A stretch of DNA of 64,000 bases from an uncultured Bacteroidota bacterium (GTDB lineage: Bacteria > Bacteroidota > Bacteroidia > B-17B0 > Aurantibacillaceae), in assembly GCA_903834765.1 (NCBI GenBank), contig CAILKE010000050.1, positions 1-64,000 of the forward strand, given 5' to 3'. Position numbers and translations under genes: made by a program. Position 1 is the first letter of the stretch; each line of letters begins with the position of its first letter. The notes under the pieces were generated by a model, which was given only the letters and a program-made list of their open reading frames with translations, was not told where the DNA came from and searched no databases. Shown in pieces: positions 20,950-46,681 of this stretch.

Positions 20950-23745
20950 ATGAACGAATCAGTAATTTATTTAGTACCTGCATTAGGAATTGTAGGATTA
21001 ATAGTAATGGCCATAAAATCTGCTTGGGTTAGTAAGCAAGATGCAGGCGATAAAAACATGCAAGAATTAGCTGGCTACATAGCAGATGGAGCAATGGCAT
21101 TCTTAAAAGCAGAGTGGAAAGTGTTAAGCATTTTTGTAGTATTTGCAGCAGCTTTATTAGCTTATTCAGGTACAATTCATGAAGTAAATGGCAAAGAAAT
21201 CCACTCTAGCTGGATTATTTGCATTGCTTTTATTATAGGTGCCGTTTTTTCAGCTACTGCTGGTTATATAGGTATGCGCGTAGCCACTAAAGCTAATGTT
21301 CGTACGACACAAGCGGCTCGTACAAGCTTAAAACAAGCCCTAAAAGTATCTTTTACAGGCGGTACTGTAATGGGACTAGGCGTTGCTGGTTTAGCAGTGC
21401 TTGGTTTAGGTGGTTTATTTATAGCATTCTTATCTTATTTTAATGACTTAGGAGAAAACACTGTAAAAACAGCAATCGAAGTATTAACCGGTTTCTCTTT
21501 AGGAGCTGAGTCTATCGCCTTATTTGCACGTGTTGGTGGTGGTATATATACCAAAGCTGCCGACGTTGGTGCTGATTTAGTTGGTAAAGTTGAAGCAGGT
21601 ATTCCTGAAGATGATGTTCGTAATCCAGCAACTATAGCTGATAACGTAGGAGATAATGTAGGAGACGTTGCTGGTATGGGTGCCGATTTATTTGGTTCTT
21701 ACGTGGCTACTATTCTTGCTACTATGGTATTAGGTCAAGAAATTAAAGTTGCTGATAATTTTGGTGGCATGTCTCCAATCTTATTGCCAATGGTAATTTG
21801 TGGCTTAGGCATTCTTTTCTCTATAGTTGGTACTTGGTTTGTTCGTATTAAAGATGAAAAATCGAATGTACAAACTGCTTTAAACATGGGTAATTGGTCA
21901 TCAATGATTCTTACCGTTATAGCCTCTTATTTTGTTGTAAATTGGATGTTACCTGCTGGCGACATTGAATTAAGAGGATTAGTATTTACAAAAACAGGTG
22001 TATTTGGTGCTATCTTAGTAGGTACAGCTGTAGGTGCTATCATGAGTATTGTAACCGAGTATTATACAGCAATGGGTAAAGGCCCTGTTAATTCAATTAT
22101 TCAACAATCATCTACAGGGCACGCTACTAATATTATTGGTGGTTTATCGGTTGGTATGAAATCTACTGTTATTCCTATTTTAACGTTAGCAGCCGGTATA
22201 GTAGGTTCTTATGTTTGCGCAGGATTATATGGTGTGGCTATAGCTGCTGCAGGTATGATGGCAACAACAGCAATGCAATTAGCTATTGATGCATTCGGAC
22301 CAATAGCTGATAATGCAGGTGGTATTGCAGAAATGAGTCAATTACCTCCTGAAGTTCGTGAGCGTACTGATAATTTAGATGCAGTTGGTAATACTACAGC
22401 AGCTACAGGAAAAGGATTCGCTATTGCTTCTGCTGCATTAACTTCATTAGCTTTATTTGCAGCCTTTGTTGGTGTTGCAGGCATTGATGCCATAAACATA
22501 TATAAAGCTCCGGTTCTTGCTGCATTATTTGTTGGCGGCATGATTCCTTTTATATTCTCAGCATTATGTATTCAAGCGGTTGGTAAAGCAGCAATGGACA
22601 TGGTACAAGAAGTTCGTCGTCAGTTTCGCGAAATTCCAGGCATTATGGAATATAAAGCAAAACCTGAATACGAAAAATGTGTAGCAATTTCAACCAAAGC
22701 TTCTATTCGCGAAATGATGTTGCCAGGTGCAATTGCATTACTTACTCCTCTTATTGTTGGGTTTGGTTTTAAAGGCATGTTTGCCGATGCGAGTTCTGCC
22801 GAAATGTTAGGAGGCTTATTAGCTGGTGTTACTGTATCAGGGGTATTAATGGGTATTTTCCAATCTAATGCTGGTGGTGCTTGGGATAACGCTAAAAAAT
22901 CTTTTGAAAAAGGTGTTATGATTAACGGTGAAATGTTCTATAAAAAATCTGAGCCACACAAAGCTTCTGTAACAGGAGATACAGTTGGAGATCCTTTTAA
23001 AGATACTTCAGGTCCGTCAATGAATATCTTAATTAAATTAATGTCAATTGTTTCTTTAGTAATTGCTCCATACATTGCTGTAGTTGGTGGTGGAGAAGAA
23101 ACTTGCTGCATAAAACAAGAAATCTTAAAATGCAACATTAACGGTAAAGAATATACTTGCACGAGCAAAGCACAATGCGATAGCATTATGACTGCTAACC
23201 AAAAAGATATTGCTGAGTTAAAAGGTTTATATAATGTTGATGGAGCGCATAGTTCATTAGGATTTAGCATTGAGCATACAATAGTTGATACTAAAGGTTC
23301 AATAACAATTGATAGTGGCTTTGTAAATATAGATGCAGCAACTGGATCAAAAGTATTTATTCAGTTAGATATGACTTCGTTGAATACTCAAAACAGTATG
23401 CGTGATGGACATTTAAAAGATAAAGAAAATTATTTTAATGTTGCTAAATTTAAAACAGCAACTTTTGAAGCAACTGAAATAGTTAAAAATACAGAGGCTG
23501 GTGAGTATGCTTACACAGCTAAAGGTAAATTAACGATTAAAGGAGTAGCTAAAGATGTAGATTTAATGTTCAACTATGCTGGTAAAAAAGAAGCAACTGA
23601 ATATGATGCTGCTGGTGGTGAAGTTAAAATTAGCGTTTCTGGATTTGAAGGAGAGTTTAATGTAGTTTGTAAAGACTATGGTATTGATATGGACGGAACT
23701 GCTGAAGTTGAATTTACAATTGAAGCTTCTCAAATTAAAAAATAA
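20950..23745 (+). CDS. hppA: Membrane-bound ion-pumping pyrophosphatase fused to a C-terminal YceI domain
   Basis: The 931-residue protein has two parts. Residues 1-710 are a complete membrane pyrophosphatase, which couples PPi hydrolysis to pumping of H+ or Na+. It has the substrate loop KAADVGADLVGKVEAGIPEDD (202-222), then DNVGDNVGDVAGMGADLF (231-248) and the C-terminal catalytic loop GGAWDNAKKSFEKG. GNTTAATGKG (480-489, Ala484) is the form of K+-dependent enzymes. At the position of the membrane glutamate in DLFESY of many relatives there is Gly249. Residues 711-757 are a linker with five cysteines (719, 720, 728, 737, 743). Residues 758-930 are a YceI-like lipocalin domain (YNVDGAHSSLGFSIEHTIV; GHLKDKENYFNVAKFKTATF). 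Both termini of these pumps face the periplasm, so the domain would be periplasmic. ATG start follows a -7 box. Confidence 0.95.
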   Translation: MNESVIYLVPALGIVGLIVMAIKSAWVSKQDAGDKNMQELAGYIADGAMAFLKAEWKVLSIFVVFAAALLAYSGTIHEVNGKEIHSSWIICIAFIIGAVFSATAGYIGMRVATKANVRTTQAARTSLKQALKVSFTGGTVMGLGVAGLAVLGLGGLFIAFLSYFNDLGENTVKTAIEVLTGFSLGAESIALFARVGGGIYTKAADVGADLVGKVEAGIPEDDVRNPATIADNVGDNVGDVAGMGADLFGSYVATILATMVLGQEIKVADNFGGMSPILLPMVICGLGILFSIVGTWFVRIKDEKSNVQTALNMGNWSSMILTVIASYFVVNWMLPAGDIELRGLVFTKTGVFGAILVGTAVGAIMSIVTEYYTAMGKGPVNSIIQQSSTGHATNIIGGLSVGMKSTVIPILTLAAGIVGSYVCAGLYGVAIAAAGMMATTAMQLAIDAFGPIADNAGGIAEMSQLPPEVRERTDNLDAVGNTTAATGKGFAIASAALTSLALFAAFVGVAGIDAINIYKAPVLAALFVGGMIPFIFSALCIQAVGKAAMDMVQEVRRQFREIPGIMEYKAKPEYEKCVAISTKASIREMMLPGAIALLTPLIVGFGFKGMFADASSAEMLGGLLAGVTVSGVLMGIFQSNAGGAWDNAKKSFEKGVMINGEMFYKKSEPHKASVTGDTVGDPFKDTSGPSMNILIKLMSIVSLVIAPYIAVVGGGEETCCIKQEILKCNINGKEYTCTSKAQCDSIMTANQKDIAELKGLYNVDGAHSSLGFSIEHTIVDTKGSITIDSGFVNIDAATGSKVFIQLDMTSLNTQNSMRDGHLKDKENYFNVAKFKTATFEATEIVKNTEAGEYAYTAKGKLTIKGVAKDVDLMFNYAGKKEATEYDAAGGEVKISVSGFEGEFNVVCKDYGIDMDGTAEVEFTIEASQIKK

Positions 23746-38132: not shown

Positions 38133-38180
38133 CTTTTAGAAGGTTAAGTAAGAATTTTGTGATCTATGTATATTTTTACG

Positions 38181-38188
38181 CAAAATTA
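38181..38188 (-). promoter_or_regulatory. -7 promoter box of the small membrane protein gene
   Basis: Reads TAATTTTG on the minus strand, an exact TAnnTTTG match, 48 nt upstream of the ATG; it overlaps the leader of the divergent WG-repeat gene. Confidence 0.5.
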
Positions 38189-38197
38189 TCATTTTTA

Positions 38198-40288
38198 ATG
38201 AAGATACTAAGTTTCATAATTTTATTTTGTATAAGCACCTCTATTTTTTCAAATAAAATCAGTGATGGCTATAAAGCGCTTACTATTTTTGATTATTTTA
38301 AAGCTAAACACTTATTTCAAAAAAGTATTTCAAATTTTCCTGCAGAAGCTAGTTTTGGATTAGCGACAATTTATTCACGAACAGATAATCCATTTTCGAA
38401 TATAGACAGTGCTGCAAAATATATTAATATTAGCCTACTATTTTTTAAGGACACAATCACGCTTTCATCTTATCACATTAACGCGAACGCTATTTCATTG
38501 TTAGCAAACATAATTAGTATTAAAGGATTTGAAAAATATTACACATTCAATTCAGTTATTGCATATCACACATTTTTAACTCAATATCAATTTGCTTCAG
38601 ACAGTTTGAAAAACAGATGTTACAATTTACGTGATTCAATTAGCTATAGTAATTATTACTTTTATGAATCAAGTGATAGCATTAAAATATTTTTATTACG
38701 CTACCCACAAACACACTTTTATTACAAAGCTACAATAGACTTTTACGATATGCAATATCGAGAACAAGTGCCTGTTGCTGATGCTATTTATTTAAAAATA
38801 TTTTTAAATAAATATCCTCATAATCCTCATAAAAATGATGCAGAAATAGATTTATTTAATATTACCAAGCAACTTCATCAACCAGATAGTTTATATAACT
38901 TTATTAATAGATACAGTACAATCCTATCTAAAGAGGAAGCTTGGAAAACATTATATAGTATCTCTGTAAAAAACTATACAAGAGATGAACTTGCTCGTTT
39001 TATAAATAAATACCCTGATTATCCTTATAATGAGAGCATTGTGAAAGAAATTTTTTTAGCCAAAAAATTATTAATCCCCATAAAAAACAATGATGATAAA
39101 TTTGGATATATAGATACAACTGGATCTTGGGTAATTAAGCCAGAATTAGATGATGCTGATTTTTTTTCTGAAGGATTTGCATCTGTTTGCAAAAATGATA
39201 GCTGTTATTACATCAATAAAGAAGGACAAAGAACATCCGAATATTATTTTGAAGAAACCAATAATTACCACAATGGAGTTGCTATAGTAAAAAAAGGAAA
39301 TGAATATTTTATCATTAATCGTTCAGGGCAATTAATTTCGAGAGGATATGAAGATATTAATGAAGCATCAGATAATTTATTTGTATGTAAATTAAAAAAT
39401 AATTACGGAGCTATTAATGCTAAAGGCGAACAAATTATACCATTTATGTATGCTAAATTAGGTGATTTTAAAAATGGCTTTGCATATTATTTATCTTCAA
39501 AATATGGATTGGTAAATACAATCAATCATACTTTAAAAGCAGAATGGGAATGGATTTCAGACGTTGATACTAACCAAGTCGTAATTGTAAAAAAAGAAAA
39601 TAAGTTCGGATTAATGCACAGTAATGAAACAATCATTCTATCTCCAAACTTCGATTATGTAGCGCCTTGTCAAAACGGTATTTATTTAATAGTAAAAAAC
39701 GGCAAGTACGGTTTTTACAATCTTAATGAATTATGTTTTGCTACTGCTTTAGATTATGATTACAATCCTGCTTATGAAACAAATTATTATACAAATGGCA
39801 AATTTTTTAAATTACTTAGAGACAATGAAGTTGCATTAATCGACGCTAATGGCCGATATAGCATTAACTTTGGCATCTACAGTAATTTATTTTTTGCGAA
39901 ATGTGATGTAATACGTATTCAGAAAAACAATAAATATGGTTATGTAGATCGAAAATTAAAAGCTATTACTACTGTAGATTTTGATCAAGCCACAGATTTC
40001 GAAAATGATGCTGCTATTGTCATGAAATCTGGAAAAACAAACTTAATAAATACAGTCGGCAAGTCAATCTTTAGTGCTAAAGACACAGAAATTGAAAAGT
40101 TAGATAATGCAATCTATCAAACTAAAATGAATGATTTACTTGGATTAATTAATGAAAAGGGAGTAGAATTATTACCTACTAATTATATATCCATCGAAAA
40201 AGTATATACTCATTTATTTAGATGCAAAAAAGAGGATGGCAGTTTATACTCATTTAATGCAGATACTAAATTATTAAAGAAATTATAA
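38198..40288 (+). CDS. WG-repeat protein with N-terminal helical (TPR-like) region
   Basis: A 696-residue exported protein. The signal peptide is MKILSFIILFCISTSIFSN. Residues 20-290 are helical and TPR-like (SDGYKALTIFDYFKAKHLFQKSI; INKYPDYPYNESIVKEIFLA). From about 300 onward there are WG (KWG) repeats: DKFGYIDTTGSWVIKPELDDADFFSEGFA, NYGAINAKGEQIIPFMYAKLGDF, NKYGYVDRKLKAITTVDFDQATDF and others. WG repeats form beta structures of uncertain role. The longest frame begins at a GTG (38159) that adds 13 residues before the signal peptide; the ATG at 38198 is the likely start. It is convergent with the histidine kinase gene, the stops 2 bp apart. Confidence 0.84.
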   Translation: MKILSFIILFCISTSIFSNKISDGYKALTIFDYFKAKHLFQKSISNFPAEASFGLATIYSRTDNPFSNIDSAAKYINISLLFFKDTITLSSYHINANAISLLANIISIKGFEKYYTFNSVIAYHTFLTQYQFASDSLKNRCYNLRDSISYSNYYFYESSDSIKIFLLRYPQTHFYYKATIDFYDMQYREQVPVADAIYLKIFLNKYPHNPHKNDAEIDLFNITKQLHQPDSLYNFINRYSTILSKEEAWKTLYSISVKNYTRDELARFINKYPDYPYNESIVKEIFLAKKLLIPIKNNDDKFGYIDTTGSWVIKPELDDADFFSEGFASVCKNDSCYYINKEGQRTSEYYFEETNNYHNGVAIVKKGNEYFIINRSGQLISRGYEDINEASDNLFVCKLKNNYGAINAKGEQIIPFMYAKLGDFKNGFAYYLSSKYGLVNTINHTLKAEWEWISDVDTNQVVIVKKENKFGLMHSNETIILSPNFDYVAPCQNGIYLIVKNGKYGFYNLNELCFATALDYDYNPAYETNYYTNGKFFKLLRDNEVALIDANGRYSINFGIYSNLFFAKCDVIRIQKNNKYGYVDRKLKAITTVDFDQATDFENDAAIVMKSGKTNLINTVGKSIFSAKDTEIEKLDNAIYQTKMNDLLGLINEKGVELLPTNYISIEKVYTHLFRCKKEDGSLYSFNADTKLLKKL

Positions 40289-40290
40289 TA

Positions 40291-43200
40291 TTAAATTTCT
40301 TCCGGAAACACTAATGTAAATGTAGTGCCTTGATTTAAATTGGTTTCAAAATTTATACTTCCATTAAACATCTCCACAGAATTTTTAACCATAGCCAAAC
40401 CTAAACCAGTTCCTGTGGTTTTCGTAGTAAAATTTGGAATAAATAATTTATCTTTCACTGATTCTTCTATTCCGCTACCATTATCTTCAACACTAACAAC
40501 AATATTTTTTTCTAAAATAAATGCATTTATTTTAATAAGTCCTTTTCTATCAGTCGGGATTGCTTGCTCCGCATTCTTTAACAAATTAGTAAATATTCGA
40601 ATACATTGATCTCTGTCGGCTAAAACAAATAGTTTGGCAGAAGCTGTTAATGTGATTTGACAATCTGTATTTTGCTGAAATAAATTAGTGACATTTTCCA
40701 ATACTTCGAATAAATTAATTTTTTCGGAGTGAGCAATGGGTAGTTTAGCAAAACTTGAAAACTCAGTAGCTATATGAGATAAGGTATCAATTTGTTCGAT
40801 GAGCATCTGTGCAACCTTATTAACTCTTTCATTTATGTCTTCAGGATGAGTAGCAACAACTCGCTGTAAATGCTGGATGTTAAGCTTCATAGGAGTGAGT
40901 GGATTTTTGATTTCATGAGCAACTTGCTTAGCCATTTCTCGCCACGCACTTTCTCTTTCTGATTGCGCTAACAATCTAGAACTTTTTTCTAGTTTAATAA
41001 GCATTGTGTTATATTCCTTTACTAAATCACCAATTTCATCTTTTGATTTCCATTCCAAAGACTCGTTATGAGTTCCAAATTTTATATTAGAGATTTGTTG
41101 TTTAATAATACGCAAAGGTTTCGTTAATAAATTAGACATTAGTAATGCAACTAATGTGGTGATTGCAAATAATATGGTATAAATGTTTATAAGGGTTGTT
41201 AAATAAGCTGTTATTTCTTCTTCTAAATCTTTTTGACGAGAGAAATAAGGAAGATTAATAAAACCTATTAATTTATCATTCTTGTTATAAAATGGAATAT
41301 AAGCCGAAAGATAATTTAGTGAGCCAATTGTTTCTCTTTGCGAATAGCTGGCCTTTGAGTCTTTCATAAAGCTTGCATAAGCAACTGGATTCATGAATTT
41401 AGAAATCAGTCCTTGATCGTAAATTGCTGGTTGTGACGATGAAAATAAAATACCTTTTTCATTAAAAAGAGAAATATCACTTCCGAATAAATGTGCTAAT
41501 TTTTTTAAGGTAATTGTTGTATTGTTTTTATAAGCCGGATCAAGCCGAGATGGTTTTCCTATAGTTTGTTCTAGTTCTTTTAAAACCAATTGAGATTTGT
41601 TTATTAATTCCTTTTTATTCTTGATTTCAAATTGGGATTCAACCACCCAAATAGTTCCAAAAACAACACCTGTTAAAGACAAAAACACTATTGAAACTAA
41701 AATAAATTGAATACGATAATTAAGGGAATTAAAATCATTTCGACGTTTAATAACAATTGAATTAAACACGAAACTGCAAAAAACGATGATTGCAAAAAAT
41801 ATAAATAAATAAGACATTGATGTTAAACGTTGCCATAAGCCTGATTTCAATTCACTTATAATAACTTTTGTATTTTTTTTATTTTCATAAAAATAATGTT
41901 TATATCCATCATCATTACCCGTAAAAAAAATTTGATTTAAATATAAAGGATACTGATAGTCACCAAAAAATCTTTCGAGTTTGTAATTTTCATATATAGC
42001 GTAGGATATTTTTTTTGTTTCAAGTTTGCTTTCTAATGATTTGTCTAATAATAAATCGGGGAATGCACCCAAATTACTCGTGTTTTTAGGTTCCATCTGA
42101 ACATATAGATTATACTTATCTTCAGAGTTATTGGTAGCACTTTCGATTTCGATTTTAGCTACGTATCTAATCGGTTTTTTTTCCTGATCAATAAAATACA
42201 AGTCATCACTTATAGTTTGTGATCCGATTTTTATTTGTTTTTCAAAATACTCCTCATTTAAATACTGGGGAAACGCCTGATTAAATAAAGTCGCTCCATC
42301 ATTTTTAAATAACGCCAATGTAATATCATAACGCTCAAAATAACCACTAAATTCAACTTGCCTAATATTTTGTTCTATTTGCTCACTGCTTAATGGTAAT
42401 AACGATAATAAGTTTTTTAATTTACTATCCGTTTTTATAGTAGAAATTACTTTTGTGAATTCGTTTTCAGCAATAATATCCTGTCTGTCTGTTAAACTAA
42501 ACCACAAGGCATCGTAGGTGTGTTGTTTGTTTTTTTGCTCATATGAATTAAACAAATTAGATGTAATGATAGTAGCAACTAAAACTATTAAACCAATATT
42601 TATAAAATTATACGATGCTTTATACTTTCTCAAAACAAAAGAAACGATAGCTAATGGCAATGGCCACAAATAATCATAAATGCTAACATCCACAAAAAAA
42701 TATATAACAAACCAAAGACTCAATGAATAGGTTATTAAACCTAATTTATAACTTAATTGAGAAAGAATAATAATGACTAATTGTTCACATAAAATATAAA
42801 ATGAATACAACATAAAACCTACAGATACTAATCCAATCAAGCTATAACCTGTGAAATGAAAGAGTTCATTGATGTTATAATTAATTGTCGAATTATTAAC
42901 CAAACTATAAATTAAATTTCTAATACTGATTGAATAATAAGTAAGTGCCGTAGTAGCAATAGTTACAATTAATAGTAATATGAATTTAGATTTGATGTGC
43001 TTAATAAAATTTGTTTTATAACAAACAACAGCAACTACTAATATTAAAAAACTATTAATTAAAACATCACCCAAAAAGGAAAAATAAAAAGAATCACCAT
43101 CGGCAAAAACACTGGCATCAAATAAACGGGTTTCATAAAAAACAGATGGCCATTTAAAATAAATCATACATGTTCTTAATAATAAACAAACTAATGCAAA

Positions 43201-43941
43201 TAGCATTAAGCGTATAACCCTATCTCTAATCAGTCTTTTAGTTTCATAAAAAATAATCAATAACATTAATAATAGTGCTAGTAAAGCAAAAAAACCTGAA
43301 TAGCCTGACGCTATTTTACTTTTATACACCCCATTACTTCTAGAGATTTCGAATAACGTATTACCCCATTTTGATTTAATAGCTGGATTTAAATAATTAA
43401 AATCAGTTTTAAGTTGAGTATTATAAGGTAAATCAAGCCAATCACTAAAATCATTTTGAATATACTTGTTCTCCAAATCATATTCGTTTTTTATTGCTAT
43501 TAATGCTATTCCTTTATACGTTGGATCAATGCTGTCCTTCTGCGAAATGCACTCAAACCATCCGTTTCTAATTTTTATAAGTTCAGATTTTGAAGACACA
43601 GCATAAGAGTATAAATCGATAGCAGGTTCATTATCACTCCAAAAACAAAGACTATCATTTTCGTAAACATAAATAGCAATACCTTCTTTTTTAAAGAGTT
43701 CAGCTATATCTGCTTGATACTTTGCAAATAATTTTTTAGGCTTTGTTGTTTTTAAAAATTTAGTTAATTGAGCTAATTTTTCTTGAGCTAAAGTTTCCTT
43801 TTGCTGTAATTTATTTTGAGCTGCTATAGCTAATTCTTTGGTAGTTGTTTTGTTAAGATACGAAATCAAAAACGACAAAAGAGTACAGATTGTAACTAAT
43901 ACAATCAATATCTTACGTCTTATATTCCATTTAGTCTGCAT
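40291..43941 (-). CDS. Very large hybrid-sensor histidine kinase, NtrY-like, no adjacent regulator
   Basis: A 1216-residue membrane kinase. The order is: helix at about 9-26; extracytoplasmic region (27-210); a block of six to eight helices (about 215-465); a second extracytoplasmic region (about 470-715); a helix (716-740); a further helix at about 755-775 with a Cache-like sensor (780-905); a helix (about 906-925); and a HAMP domain (about 926-975). The kinase core has the H-box VAHEIKNPLTPMKLNIQH (His1009), N-box NLLKNAEQAI, G1 VEDNGSGI and G2 TGTGLGLAMV. The H-box and HAMP placement are NtrY-like. No response regulator is adjacent. The signal is unknown; multiple sensor modules suggest envelope status. 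Confidence 0.9.
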   Translation of the reverse strand: MQTKWNIRRKILIVLVTICTLLSFLISYLNKTTTKELAIAAQNKLQQKETLAQEKLAQLTKFLKTTKPKKLFAKYQADIAELFKKEGIAIYVYENDSLCFWSDNEPAIDLYSYAVSSKSELIKIRNGWFECISQKDSIDPTYKGIALIAIKNEYDLENKYIQNDFSDWLDLPYNTQLKTDFNYLNPAIKSKWGNTLFEISRSNGVYKSKIASGYSGFFALLALLLMLLIIFYETKRLIRDRVIRLMLFALVCLLLRTCMIYFKWPSVFYETRLFDASVFADGDSFYFSFLGDVLINSFLILVVAVVCYKTNFIKHIKSKFILLLIVTIATTALTYYSISIRNLIYSLVNNSTINYNINELFHFTGYSLIGLVSVGFMLYSFYILCEQLVIIILSQLSYKLGLITYSLSLWFVIYFFVDVSIYDYLWPLPLAIVSFVLRKYKASYNFINIGLIVLVATIITSNLFNSYEQKNKQHTYDALWFSLTDRQDIIAENEFTKVISTIKTDSKLKNLLSLLPLSSEQIEQNIRQVEFSGYFERYDITLALFKNDGATLFNQAFPQYLNEEYFEKQIKIGSQTISDDLYFIDQEKKPIRYVAKIEIESATNNSEDKYNLYVQMEPKNTSNLGAFPDLLLDKSLESKLETKKISYAIYENYKLERFFGDYQYPLYLNQIFFTGNDDGYKHYFYENKKNTKVIISELKSGLWQRLTSMSYLFIFFAIIVFCSFVFNSIVIKRRNDFNSLNYRIQFILVSIVFLSLTGVVFGTIWVVESQFEIKNKKELINKSQLVLKELEQTIGKPSRLDPAYKNNTTITLKKLAHLFGSDISLFNEKGILFSSSQPAIYDQGLISKFMNPVAYASFMKDSKASYSQRETIGSLNYLSAYIPFYNKNDKLIGFINLPYFSRQKDLEEEITAYLTTLINIYTILFAITTLVALLMSNLLTKPLRIIKQQISNIKFGTHNESLEWKSKDEIGDLVKEYNTMLIKLEKSSRLLAQSERESAWREMAKQVAHEIKNPLTPMKLNIQHLQRVVATHPEDINERVNKVAQMLIEQIDTLSHIATEFSSFAKLPIAHSEKINLFEVLENVTNLFQQNTDCQITLTASAKLFVLADRDQCIRIFTNLLKNAEQAIPTDRKGLIKINAFILEKNIVVSVEDNGSGIEESVKDKLFIPNFTTKTTGTGLGLAMVKNSVEMFNGSINFETNLNQGTTFTLVFPEEI

Positions 43942-44038: not shown

Positions 44039-46681
44039 ATGGCAAAAGAAACAACAAACGTTAAGCAACCTAAATTTGAAGAGTTAAAAAATACATTTCG
44101 ATTTTTTCCTTTCAAAAGTCAAAAAGCACCTTTTATTGTAATTATTTTATTGGGGCTAATCTTTAACCTCACTTCTTTAAATAATGAGTATGCTCTTGAT
44201 GACGGGATTATTATTCATCAAAATGACCATGTAATTAAAGGAATTGCTGGTATTAAAGGTATACTAACTAAAGATGCCTACGAAAGCTTTTATCGTAAAA
44301 TGAATGCGACCGATCAATTAGCAGGTGGCCGTTACAGACCATTATCTGTTGTGAGTTTTGCTATCGAACAGCAATTTATTGGCGCTTATCCTAAAGACGG
44401 AAATTATCCTGCTGCCTGTTGGCGAAGCGATACAGCTAATTTCAAAATCACTCACGTAGATGATCCTAAAGATGATATTAATAATGACGGTGTATTTAAT
44501 GAAGTAGATTGTCAGGTAAAAGGTGCGTCTATTAGACATTTCGTTAATATTATTTCTTTCATCCTAGGTATCATGTTATTATTCCTGTTTTTTAGAAATT
44601 ATATTTTTAAAGATAATCATGACTTAGCATTCTTAGCAGCTATTTTATTCTTAATGCACCCACTCCACTCAGAGGCCATAGCCAATGTAAAAAGTAGAGA
44701 TGAGATTTTCTCCTTGATATTTATTTCATTAACATTCTTTTATTCGTTTAGATTTGTAGATTACGCTAATTACATTAAAGAAGAAGGTTTATTGAGTAAA
44801 GCATCTGTATCTATTAAGCAACTAAGCTTTGCTATCATATCAATTATCGTAATAGGCTTTGCCTATTTATTTCTGGCAAATACAAAAGATATTGGAATAT
44901 TAATTAACCTGCCAACTATCGGCATTGGTGGACTAATTGTTTACTCTTGTTACATGACACTCATCAAAGGAGAAAAACTACCAAAAAACATCATGTTAGC
45001 ATGGGCTGTTATTTGTTTCTTATTAGCTTTATTAGCAAAAGAATATGCTGTTGTTTTAATCGCACTAATGCCCGTAGCATTTTATGTTTTTGGTAAAATA
45101 GAGTTTGATTATAAAACGTTTACTAAGTCAACTGACTTTATGCAAACGGTCTTTGTGTTTGGTTCTTTTGTTATTGCAGCCTTATTTATGTTATTTGTAA
45201 AACGTAACTCTGACATGCATATTCAACCTGGACAAAAAGCTACCTTGGCATTTTGGTTATTTCCATTTTTATATTTAGTAATAGGCGTGTTTTTATTAGG
45301 CTCTAAAACAAAAACTAATTTTGGAAAATTAATGACATGGCAATTCTTCATCATGCTATTTTATTTAGGAATGCGTTTAGTAGCGGTAAAATTAAAGCCA
45401 GGCGTGCCAGATACTGAAATCTTAAATAACCCTTATTTATTAGCTAATGGAGAAGAACGCTTTATGACAAAAGCTTTTGTATTATTAAAATACATTGGGC
45501 TTTGTTGGTTCCCACATCCATTAACATCCGATTATTCATTTAATACGATTCAATATCGCCATTTCACTAGTTGGGATTCCATTTTATCAATTGTATTACA
45601 TATTAGTTTAGCTTACTATGGCGTAAAACTAGTCATCCGTAAACACATCATGGGCTTTGCCATTGCAGTGTATTTCGCCTTCTTATTAATGATAGGTAAC
45701 ATCTTGATGGATATTGGTGCGACAATGGGTGAACGTTTACTATTCCACTCAACCATTGGTTTCTGTATTGCATTAGCATGGCTTATTTTAAAAGGATTTG
45801 ATTCAATCCCAAATATTGCTTTTAAAGCTAAGCAAGTCGTTTTCTTTTTAGTATTAGGAACTATGACTTTTTTATATGGTTGTAAAACATGGGAACGTAA
45901 TTGGGATTGGAAAAACGATATCACGTTATTTTTAAAAGATGTAGAGATTATTCCAAACTCAGTGCTTGTATTAGGTAATGCCGGCGCACGTTACATTGAT
46001 TTGGCAGATACTAAAACATTTGTTGAAAATCCTGCCGATACGAGTTTAGTTCAATTACAAGAATTAAATCCACATCCTGTAGAACCAAATTATGGAACGA
46101 TTGAGAAATTAGGACAAAAAGTAAAACCAAAGATTGGATCAATCGAAGTATACCATGTGGATTCAGTTGATAAAGTGGCTTTCAACAGAAAACGTACTGC
46201 TTTCTTAGAAAAAGGATTAAAATATTTAAAACATGCCGTTGAGTTACATCCCCGATACGTGAATGGATATTTAAATTTAGGATTAGGTAGTTACAAATTA
46301 GGTCGCGATCGTGATGCCCTATATTATTGGAAACATGCAGAACACCTGTATCCTAACAATCCGTATTTGAAAAATTATTACATCGTATTCTATAATGATT
46401 TATTGCAACGTGGCTATAAAAAAGCGCAACGAGGTCAATTGGATAGTGCTATATATGAATTAAATAAAACCATCATATTAGACAAATTAAACCCTGAAGG
46501 TTTTTATAATATAGGTGGTGCATATTATCAAAAAGGAAATTATGCAAAAGCAAAATACTATTGGGAACAATGTGTAAAAATAAACCCAAATTATACGCAA
46601 GCAGTAAATGGTTTAAAAACCATTGTAACCGTTACGGTTCCAGCTCAACCTATTGCATCCCAACCTGTTTCAATTAAGTAA
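44039..46681 (+). CDS. TMTC-like O-mannosyltransferase family protein with TPR repeats
   Basis: An 880-residue protein with about ten or more transmembrane helices (32-620) and C-terminal TPRs (about 735-860, LKHAVELHPRYVNGYLNLGLGSYKLG; AIYELNKTIILDKLNPEGFYNIGGAYYQKG). Its motifs match eukaryotic TMTC proteins: NEYALDDGIIIHQN near helix 1 with the GT-C acidic pair, RYRPLSVVSF, HPLHSEAIANVKSRDEIFSLIF, DYSFNTIQ and MGERLLFHSTIGFCIALAWL. TMTC enzymes transfer mannose from a polyprenyl phosphate to Ser/Thr of secreted proteins. Here the first periplasmic loop carries an insert with the calcium-loop pattern DINNDGVFNEVD (146-157). It probably glycosylates exported proteins. A terminator follows. 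Confidence 0.85.
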   Translation: MAKETTNVKQPKFEELKNTFRFFPFKSQKAPFIVIILLGLIFNLTSLNNEYALDDGIIIHQNDHVIKGIAGIKGILTKDAYESFYRKMNATDQLAGGRYRPLSVVSFAIEQQFIGAYPKDGNYPAACWRSDTANFKITHVDDPKDDINNDGVFNEVDCQVKGASIRHFVNIISFILGIMLLFLFFRNYIFKDNHDLAFLAAILFLMHPLHSEAIANVKSRDEIFSLIFISLTFFYSFRFVDYANYIKEEGLLSKASVSIKQLSFAIISIIVIGFAYLFLANTKDIGILINLPTIGIGGLIVYSCYMTLIKGEKLPKNIMLAWAVICFLLALLAKEYAVVLIALMPVAFYVFGKIEFDYKTFTKSTDFMQTVFVFGSFVIAALFMLFVKRNSDMHIQPGQKATLAFWLFPFLYLVIGVFLLGSKTKTNFGKLMTWQFFIMLFYLGMRLVAVKLKPGVPDTEILNNPYLLANGEERFMTKAFVLLKYIGLCWFPHPLTSDYSFNTIQYRHFTSWDSILSIVLHISLAYYGVKLVIRKHIMGFAIAVYFAFLLMIGNILMDIGATMGERLLFHSTIGFCIALAWLILKGFDSIPNIAFKAKQVVFFLVLGTMTFLYGCKTWERNWDWKNDITLFLKDVEIIPNSVLVLGNAGARYIDLADTKTFVENPADTSLVQLQELNPHPVEPNYGTIEKLGQKVKPKIGSIEVYHVDSVDKVAFNRKRTAFLEKGLKYLKHAVELHPRYVNGYLNLGLGSYKLGRDRDALYYWKHAEHLYPNNPYLKNYYIVFYNDLLQRGYKKAQRGQLDSAIYELNKTIILDKLNPEGFYNIGGAYYQKGNYAKAKYYWEQCVKINPNYTQAVNGLKTIVTVTVPAQPIASQPVSIK

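Follow-up and report, generated by a model that had tools for sequence, protein, structure and literature searches.

A gene for a membrane protein of TMTC-like design was identified in a window of 64,000 nucleotides (the whole stretch of DNA that was analysed) from an uncultured Bacteroidota bacterium. The family alignment and the predicted structure support the description of its product as an active-looking GT-C glycosyltransferase. Taken as a whole, the protein is probably best explained as a lineage-specific periplasmic transferase, which would pass a polyprenyl-linked hexose to exported proteins. Sequence or prediction supports the GT-C fold, the intact motifs, the topology, the calcium-loop signature and the distribution of the protein. 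Full-length bacterial homologues of TMTC have already been reported, e.g., AMJ42_05695 from Deltaproteobacteria, in the available text of PMC7801869, so that the occurrence of TMTC in bacteria is not new. These homologues are described there as a sugar transferase followed by TPRs, as in the present protein (descriptions only were compared), and the same text contains no calcium-loop clade, gene neighbourhood or distribution survey. The new elements are a clade-specific predicted calcium loop inside the catalytic loop and the conserved gene neighbourhood of the clade that carries it. Also new is the case, made below, against the TMTC-like family as the general O-glycosylation enzyme of Bacteroidota. 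The protein is named TMTC-like and is not filed as a member of TMTC, because on its own it misses the curated cut-off of the family and we only infer its activity.

The open reading frame begins with ATG, and the 880 residues and all motifs named in the first-pass annotation are present in the order given there. The N-terminal half contains LDDG (residues 53-56), RYRPLS (98-103), HPLHSEAIANVKSRDE (207-222) and LAKEY (332-336), and the C-terminal half contains TSDYS (496-500), GERLLF (564-569) and WERNWDW (618-624). The last of these, which we take to be similar to human TMTC3, serves as a lead only. The C-terminal TPRs claimed at first pass are significant in Pfam (TPR_2, E = 2e-11, residues 793-852). 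Motifs were scored against the TMTC motif table in the available text of PMC7801869. M1 (DD), M3 (RxD/E), M4 (KE) and M7 (ER) are all retained, whereas M2 keeps YRP but has AGGR for SHKS, and M5 keeps its D but has DY for DW. None of the GT-C catalytic acids, the loss of which would have spoken against the first assignment, is missing.

Relatives were gathered from whole genomes and arranged in an alignment of close relatives (A1, 42 rows) and one of the wider family (A2, 33 rows). D54, D55, R98-P101, H210, E212, R220, K334, E335, D498, Y499 and E565 are identical in 42/42 close relatives, and position 222 is E or D in every row. Most of these motif residues are also kept in A2, and such invariance shows that the motif set is not due to chance. 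R566 is kept in 36 of the 42 A1 rows and is replaced by G or S in the other six. The corresponding arginine of M7 binds phosphate in TMTC and OST. The coordinates of the features are listed in Table 1.

Table 1. Positions in the window of the TMTC-like gene, its divergent neighbour and the features of its product.
Feature	Position	Strand	Basis
Large membrane sensor histidine kinase, 1216 aa, conserved divergent neighbour	40291..43941	-	sCache/HAMP/HisKA/HATPase
TMTC-like GT-C glycosyltransferase with C-terminal TPRs, 880 aa	44039..46681	+	ORF, alignments A1/A2, AF2 models, GT-C structural matches
Membrane catalytic domain, residues 30-623, 15 predicted helices	44126..45907	+	AF2 model pTM 0.88, topology
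M1 acidic pair D54-D55, external loop 1, putative GT-C catalytic/metal site	44198..44203	+	invariant in 42/42 and 33/33 relatives
M2 RYRP, residues 98-101	44330..44341	+	invariant in 42/42; R100, P101 in 33/33
Clade-specific insert, external loop 1, about residues 118-164	44390..44530	+	absent from wider family
Predicted EF-hand/TSP3-like calcium loop (residues 146-157, DINNDGVFNEVD) between C127 and C158	44474..44509	+	ligand residues 42/42
M3 R220-x-E222	44696..44704	+	R 42/42, E/D 42/42
M4 K334-E335, external loop	45038..45043	+	42/42; K334 33/33
PF08409 (TMTC/DUF1736)-like segment, residues 463-506, with M5 D498-Y499	45425..45556	+	13.1 bits alone; 41/42 relatives match
M7 E565-R566	45731..45736	+	E 42/42, R 36/42
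C-terminal TPR helices, residues 712-861, predicted periplasmic	46172..46621	+	Pfam TPRs, AF2 helices, odd helix count

The search with the PF08409 profile, which had been proposed as a check, stood for the relatives and fell short for the protein alone. Matches were found in 41/42 relatives, with a best E of 1.2e-6, but the protein itself gave E = 0.099 and 13.1 bits, below the cut-off of 27. The evidence for TMTC from the protein alone is thus weaker than the first-pass annotation had assumed. The matched segment lies at the expected site, in the loop joining core helices 7 and 8, and members of the same clade in other genomes (G029, G022, G032 and G026) scored above the cut-off in genome scans. 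PMT_2 matches were found in 35 of the 42 relatives. The MIR domain, a hallmark of PMT/POMT (GT39), had no Pfam match in the protein at E<=0.1, and the ArnT family is not among its Pfam matches. The A2 profile of the membrane domain gave no match to PDB sequences up to E = 10. The ordered motifs, GT-C fold and TPR tail, together with the PF08409 matches among relatives, bear out the TMTC-like identity, and O-mannosyltransferase activity would be plausible.

The AlphaFold2 model of the full protein has a pTM of 0.77, and that of residues 1-660 one of 0.88. The model contains an 11-helix TMTC-like core and two extra hairpins (residues 257-309 and 365-423), and the odd total of 15 membrane helices would place the active-site loops and the TPRs on one side, predicted to be periplasmic. 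The membrane-domain model was compared with known structures by VIA-align, and, as had been suggested for comparison at first pass, its best matches are all GT-C proteins. The top matches were Stt3 (Z 19.8, rmsd 4.9, 349 aligned), Pmt1-Pmt2 (Z 17.8, 4.7, 371) and Pmt4 (Z 17.3, 5.0, 378), followed by ALG12 (Z 15.8), PglB (Z 15.2), ArnT (Z 14.8, 4.9, 347) and AftB (Z 14.0). Down to Z 9.5 every row is a GT-C protein, and the highest non-GT-C row is at Z 7.2. Foldseek matches of the full model were dominated by TPR proteins, and those of the membrane domain had weak E-values (best 0.011). The model and the intact motifs make an active GT-C enzyme with a lipid-linked donor very probable.

The fold by itself does not single out an acceptor, because good matches were also obtained with enzymes that act on lipid A (ArnT) and arabinan (AftB). 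Glycolipids and polysaccharides are common acceptors of bacterial GT-C enzymes, and an ArnT- or Aft-like role with lipid A/LPS core, capsule or another envelope glycan as acceptor would agree with both of these structural matches. Protein-modifying enzymes nevertheless lead the ranking, with ArnT below Stt3 and Pmt, and the predicted periplasmic TPR tail is more in keeping with a protein, as is the gene for a T9SS-sorted protein that relatives apparently co-transcribe (see below). A non-protein acceptor is therefore a minority possibility, and a protein acceptor is moderately favoured.

The eukaryotic TMTC1-4 are O-mannosyltransferases of family PF08409 with cadherin targets. They share with the present protein the motif order DD, YRP, RxD/E, KE, D(W/Y) and ER, the GT-C fold, the 11 core helices and the cytoplasmic N-terminus (both predicted here) and the TPR tail, which is lumenal in the human enzymes and predicted to be periplasmic here. 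What sets the bacterial protein apart from TMTC1-4 is an insert resembling an EF-hand in external loop 1, two additional helix hairpins and a smaller number of TPR helices, besides the M2 and M5 changes and the sub-threshold PF08409 score; it is not known to have cadherin substrates. Yeast Pmt1-Pmt2 and Pmt4 (GT39) and Stt3/PglB (OST) have the same fold (Z 15-20) and a similar external-loop acidic site, but identity to them is about 9-13%, and the present protein differs in its TPRs and in having no detected MIR domain. ArnT, the aminoarabinose transferase of lipid A, is alike in fold and in its type of donor (Und-P-sugar), but the identity is 8-9% and the TPR tail belongs to the present protein.

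A predicted calcium-binding loop, specific to bacteria and located in the catalytic first external loop, had been missed in the first-pass annotation. It is part of an insert between RYRPLS and the second helix, which comprises one to several EF-hand/thrombospondin-3/dockerin-type loops among members of the clade and does not occur in the wider TMTC-like family. DINNDGVFNEVD satisfies the DxDxDG-type pattern with ligands at positions 1, 3, 5 and 12, and D146, N148, D150, G151 and D157 are invariant in 42/42 rows. C127 and C158 are each kept in 41/42 rows and are both lost in the one exception; this paired keeping and joint loss suggests a disulfide, which probably closes the loop. When the protein was shuffled 5000 times, 21 of the resulting sequences contained an equally strict loop. 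Calcium binding is deduced from the ligand pattern, since the Pfam EF-hand and dockerin matches are below cut-off, and confidence in the AF2 models is among the lowest in the insert. When the insert columns were removed before tree building, the loop-bearing rows formed one supported clade (96/96) and the trait changed once. The apparent calcium site may help to explain how enzymes of the TMTC type hold on to their substrates.

A paralogous calcium-loop lineage was also found (L081, L082, L086, L089-L091, L094 and L095), in which several members have lost the M7 arginine (the G or S at position 566 in six of the 42 A1 rows) but retain the rest of the motif residues. At some loci of this lineage, e.g., L082, a gene for a sigma-70 factor lies immediately upstream. 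The window's own genome (G000) encodes three further, distant TMTC-like/GT-C paralogues, L101 (C56), L104 (C4) and L108 (C71), all without the calcium loop.

The TMTC-like gene is divergent from a gene for a large histidine kinase in 52 loci, typically about 100 bp apart. This very stable adjacency and the loss of the M7 arginine (R566) in some paralogues, six of 42 rows, would suit a catalytically inactive GT-C scaffold or sensor partner of the kinase. The motif residues, however, are all intact here and invariant in near relatives, and the kinase (found in 54/60 relatives) is present without the TMTC-like gene in several genomes, which makes such a scaffold highly improbable. The kinase as an obligate functional partner was rejected, as it is near-universal in the class and the adjacency reflects conserved gene order. 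The kinase product has multiple helices and no detected response-regulator domain. No response regulator was recognised beside its gene, the neighbour of which encodes a WG-repeat protein (38159-40288).

In relatives of other genera, the TMTC-like gene apparently heads an operon in which genes for a secreted cupin and then for a T9SS cargo follow. The small cupin gene typically follows 2 bp after the TMTC-like gene and is on the same strand in 26/26 cases. Examples at L034:10549-10950 and L042:10703-11119 are related to the C-terminal cupin of mannose-6-phosphate isomerase, and a homologue at L074:5738-6178 begins with a signal-peptide-like stretch. The cupin was found in 20/60 relatives, several times away from the TMTC-like gene, which shows that the linkage is not fixed, and no orthologue was found in the window's own genome. 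The gene for a Por_Secre_tail (T9SS) protein is located about 412 bp downstream of the TMTC-like gene, on the same strand in 20/20 loci of relatives.

The case for T9SS cargo as the substrate is only circumstantial: the cargo is encoded downstream in 20 loci of relatives, and none lies at the window locus. A narrower form of the preferred explanation is an enzyme dedicated to a single T9SS-exported protein or a small number of them, for example this Por_Secre_tail protein. The same-strand arrangement, the presence of a cargo homologue in 18/20 genomes of the window's genus and the occurrence of SprA in all 38 TMTC-like-positive genomes speak for it. In the window's genome, however, the homologue is unlinked (G000:C43:98470-100569, 41% identity), the co-occurrence may reflect shared ancestry, and the number of D(S/T)X sites in the six cargo sequences examined is no more than 4-6, with an ordinary S/T content. 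Such a dedicated enzyme is a rather unlikely outcome, and T9SS cargo as the main substrate of the transferase is similarly doubtful.

The distribution of the family was determined in 296 Bacteroidota genomes that were at least 90% complete. SprA was found in 38/38 genomes with the TMTC-like protein and in 227/296 overall (hypergeometric 1.9e-5), which is consistent with a T9SS role. This co-occurrence is not counted as strong, because phylogeny may explain it; among those listed, the SprA-negative genomes are mostly of one family.

The first-pass annotation had linked the protein with the first step of Bacteroidota O-glycosylation, and this part of its proposal was not borne out. According to a 2025 review (PMC12871550), the oligosaccharyltransferase (OTase), core flippase and ligase of this system are undiscovered, mannose is the presumed first sugar of the O-glycan, and enrichment of the O-glycosylation motif extends to almost every family of the phylum. 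The fold and topology of the TMTC-like protein would be right for the missing general D(S/T)X enzyme. The TMTC-like profile, however, matched only 38/296 genomes, and PF08409 had no match in the Bacteroides control genome. This patchy spread, set against a motif found across nearly all families, argues that the TMTC-like protein is not the general enzyme; as the first-step enzyme of the phylum it is very unlikely, with hardly any weight left to that reading.

A much better candidate for the phylum-wide enzyme, judged from distribution and family name, is the TMEM260-like protein (PF11028, DUF2723). Proteins of this separate Pfam family are likewise predicted membrane glycosyltransferases in Bacteroidota, and unlike the TMTC-like protein they occur in essentially every genome (295/296, usually in one or two copies, and also in the Bacteroides control). 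This near-universal distribution and the role of human TMEM260 as an O-mannosylation enzyme (PMC11292533) make it the better candidate. The question of the general enzyme is thereby narrowed, against the TMTC-like family and toward the TMEM260-like protein. Among the papers searched, none dealt with DUF2723 of bacteria or with TMTC of Bacteroidetes. The window's genome encodes a TMEM260-like protein of 1093 aa at L150:1287-4568 (-), around G000:C32:25929-26468.

For the preferred lineage-specific transferase, we infer the donor, sugar, acceptor and role of calcium as follows. The inner-membrane GT-C enzyme would draw on a polyprenyl (undecaprenyl)-linked sugar donor on the periplasmic side, using a putative site formed by D54/D55, K334/E335, D498 and R566. 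The sugar, possibly a hexose such as mannose (a tentative assignment), would be passed to hydroxyl groups of exported proteins. The periplasmic TPR tail may hold or present acceptor proteins, and the groove for donor and acceptor may owe its fixed shape to the calcium loop of the first external loop. The activity would be lineage-specific, possibly for surface or T9SS-exported proteins, and would operate beside the phylum-wide O-glycosylation system. A more elaborate form, in which a calcium-dependent TMTC-like branch for T9SS proteins in this uncultivated Bacteroidia lineage is controlled together with the divergent sensor kinase and works beside the TMEM260-like enzyme, is quite improbable. 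If this were true, two of the three O-mannosylation families of animals would have bacterial counterparts in Bacteroidota.

Elsewhere in the window, an open reading frame at 20950-23745 (+) encodes an H+-pyrophosphatase of 931 aa with a C-terminal YceI-like domain, which is an unusual fusion.
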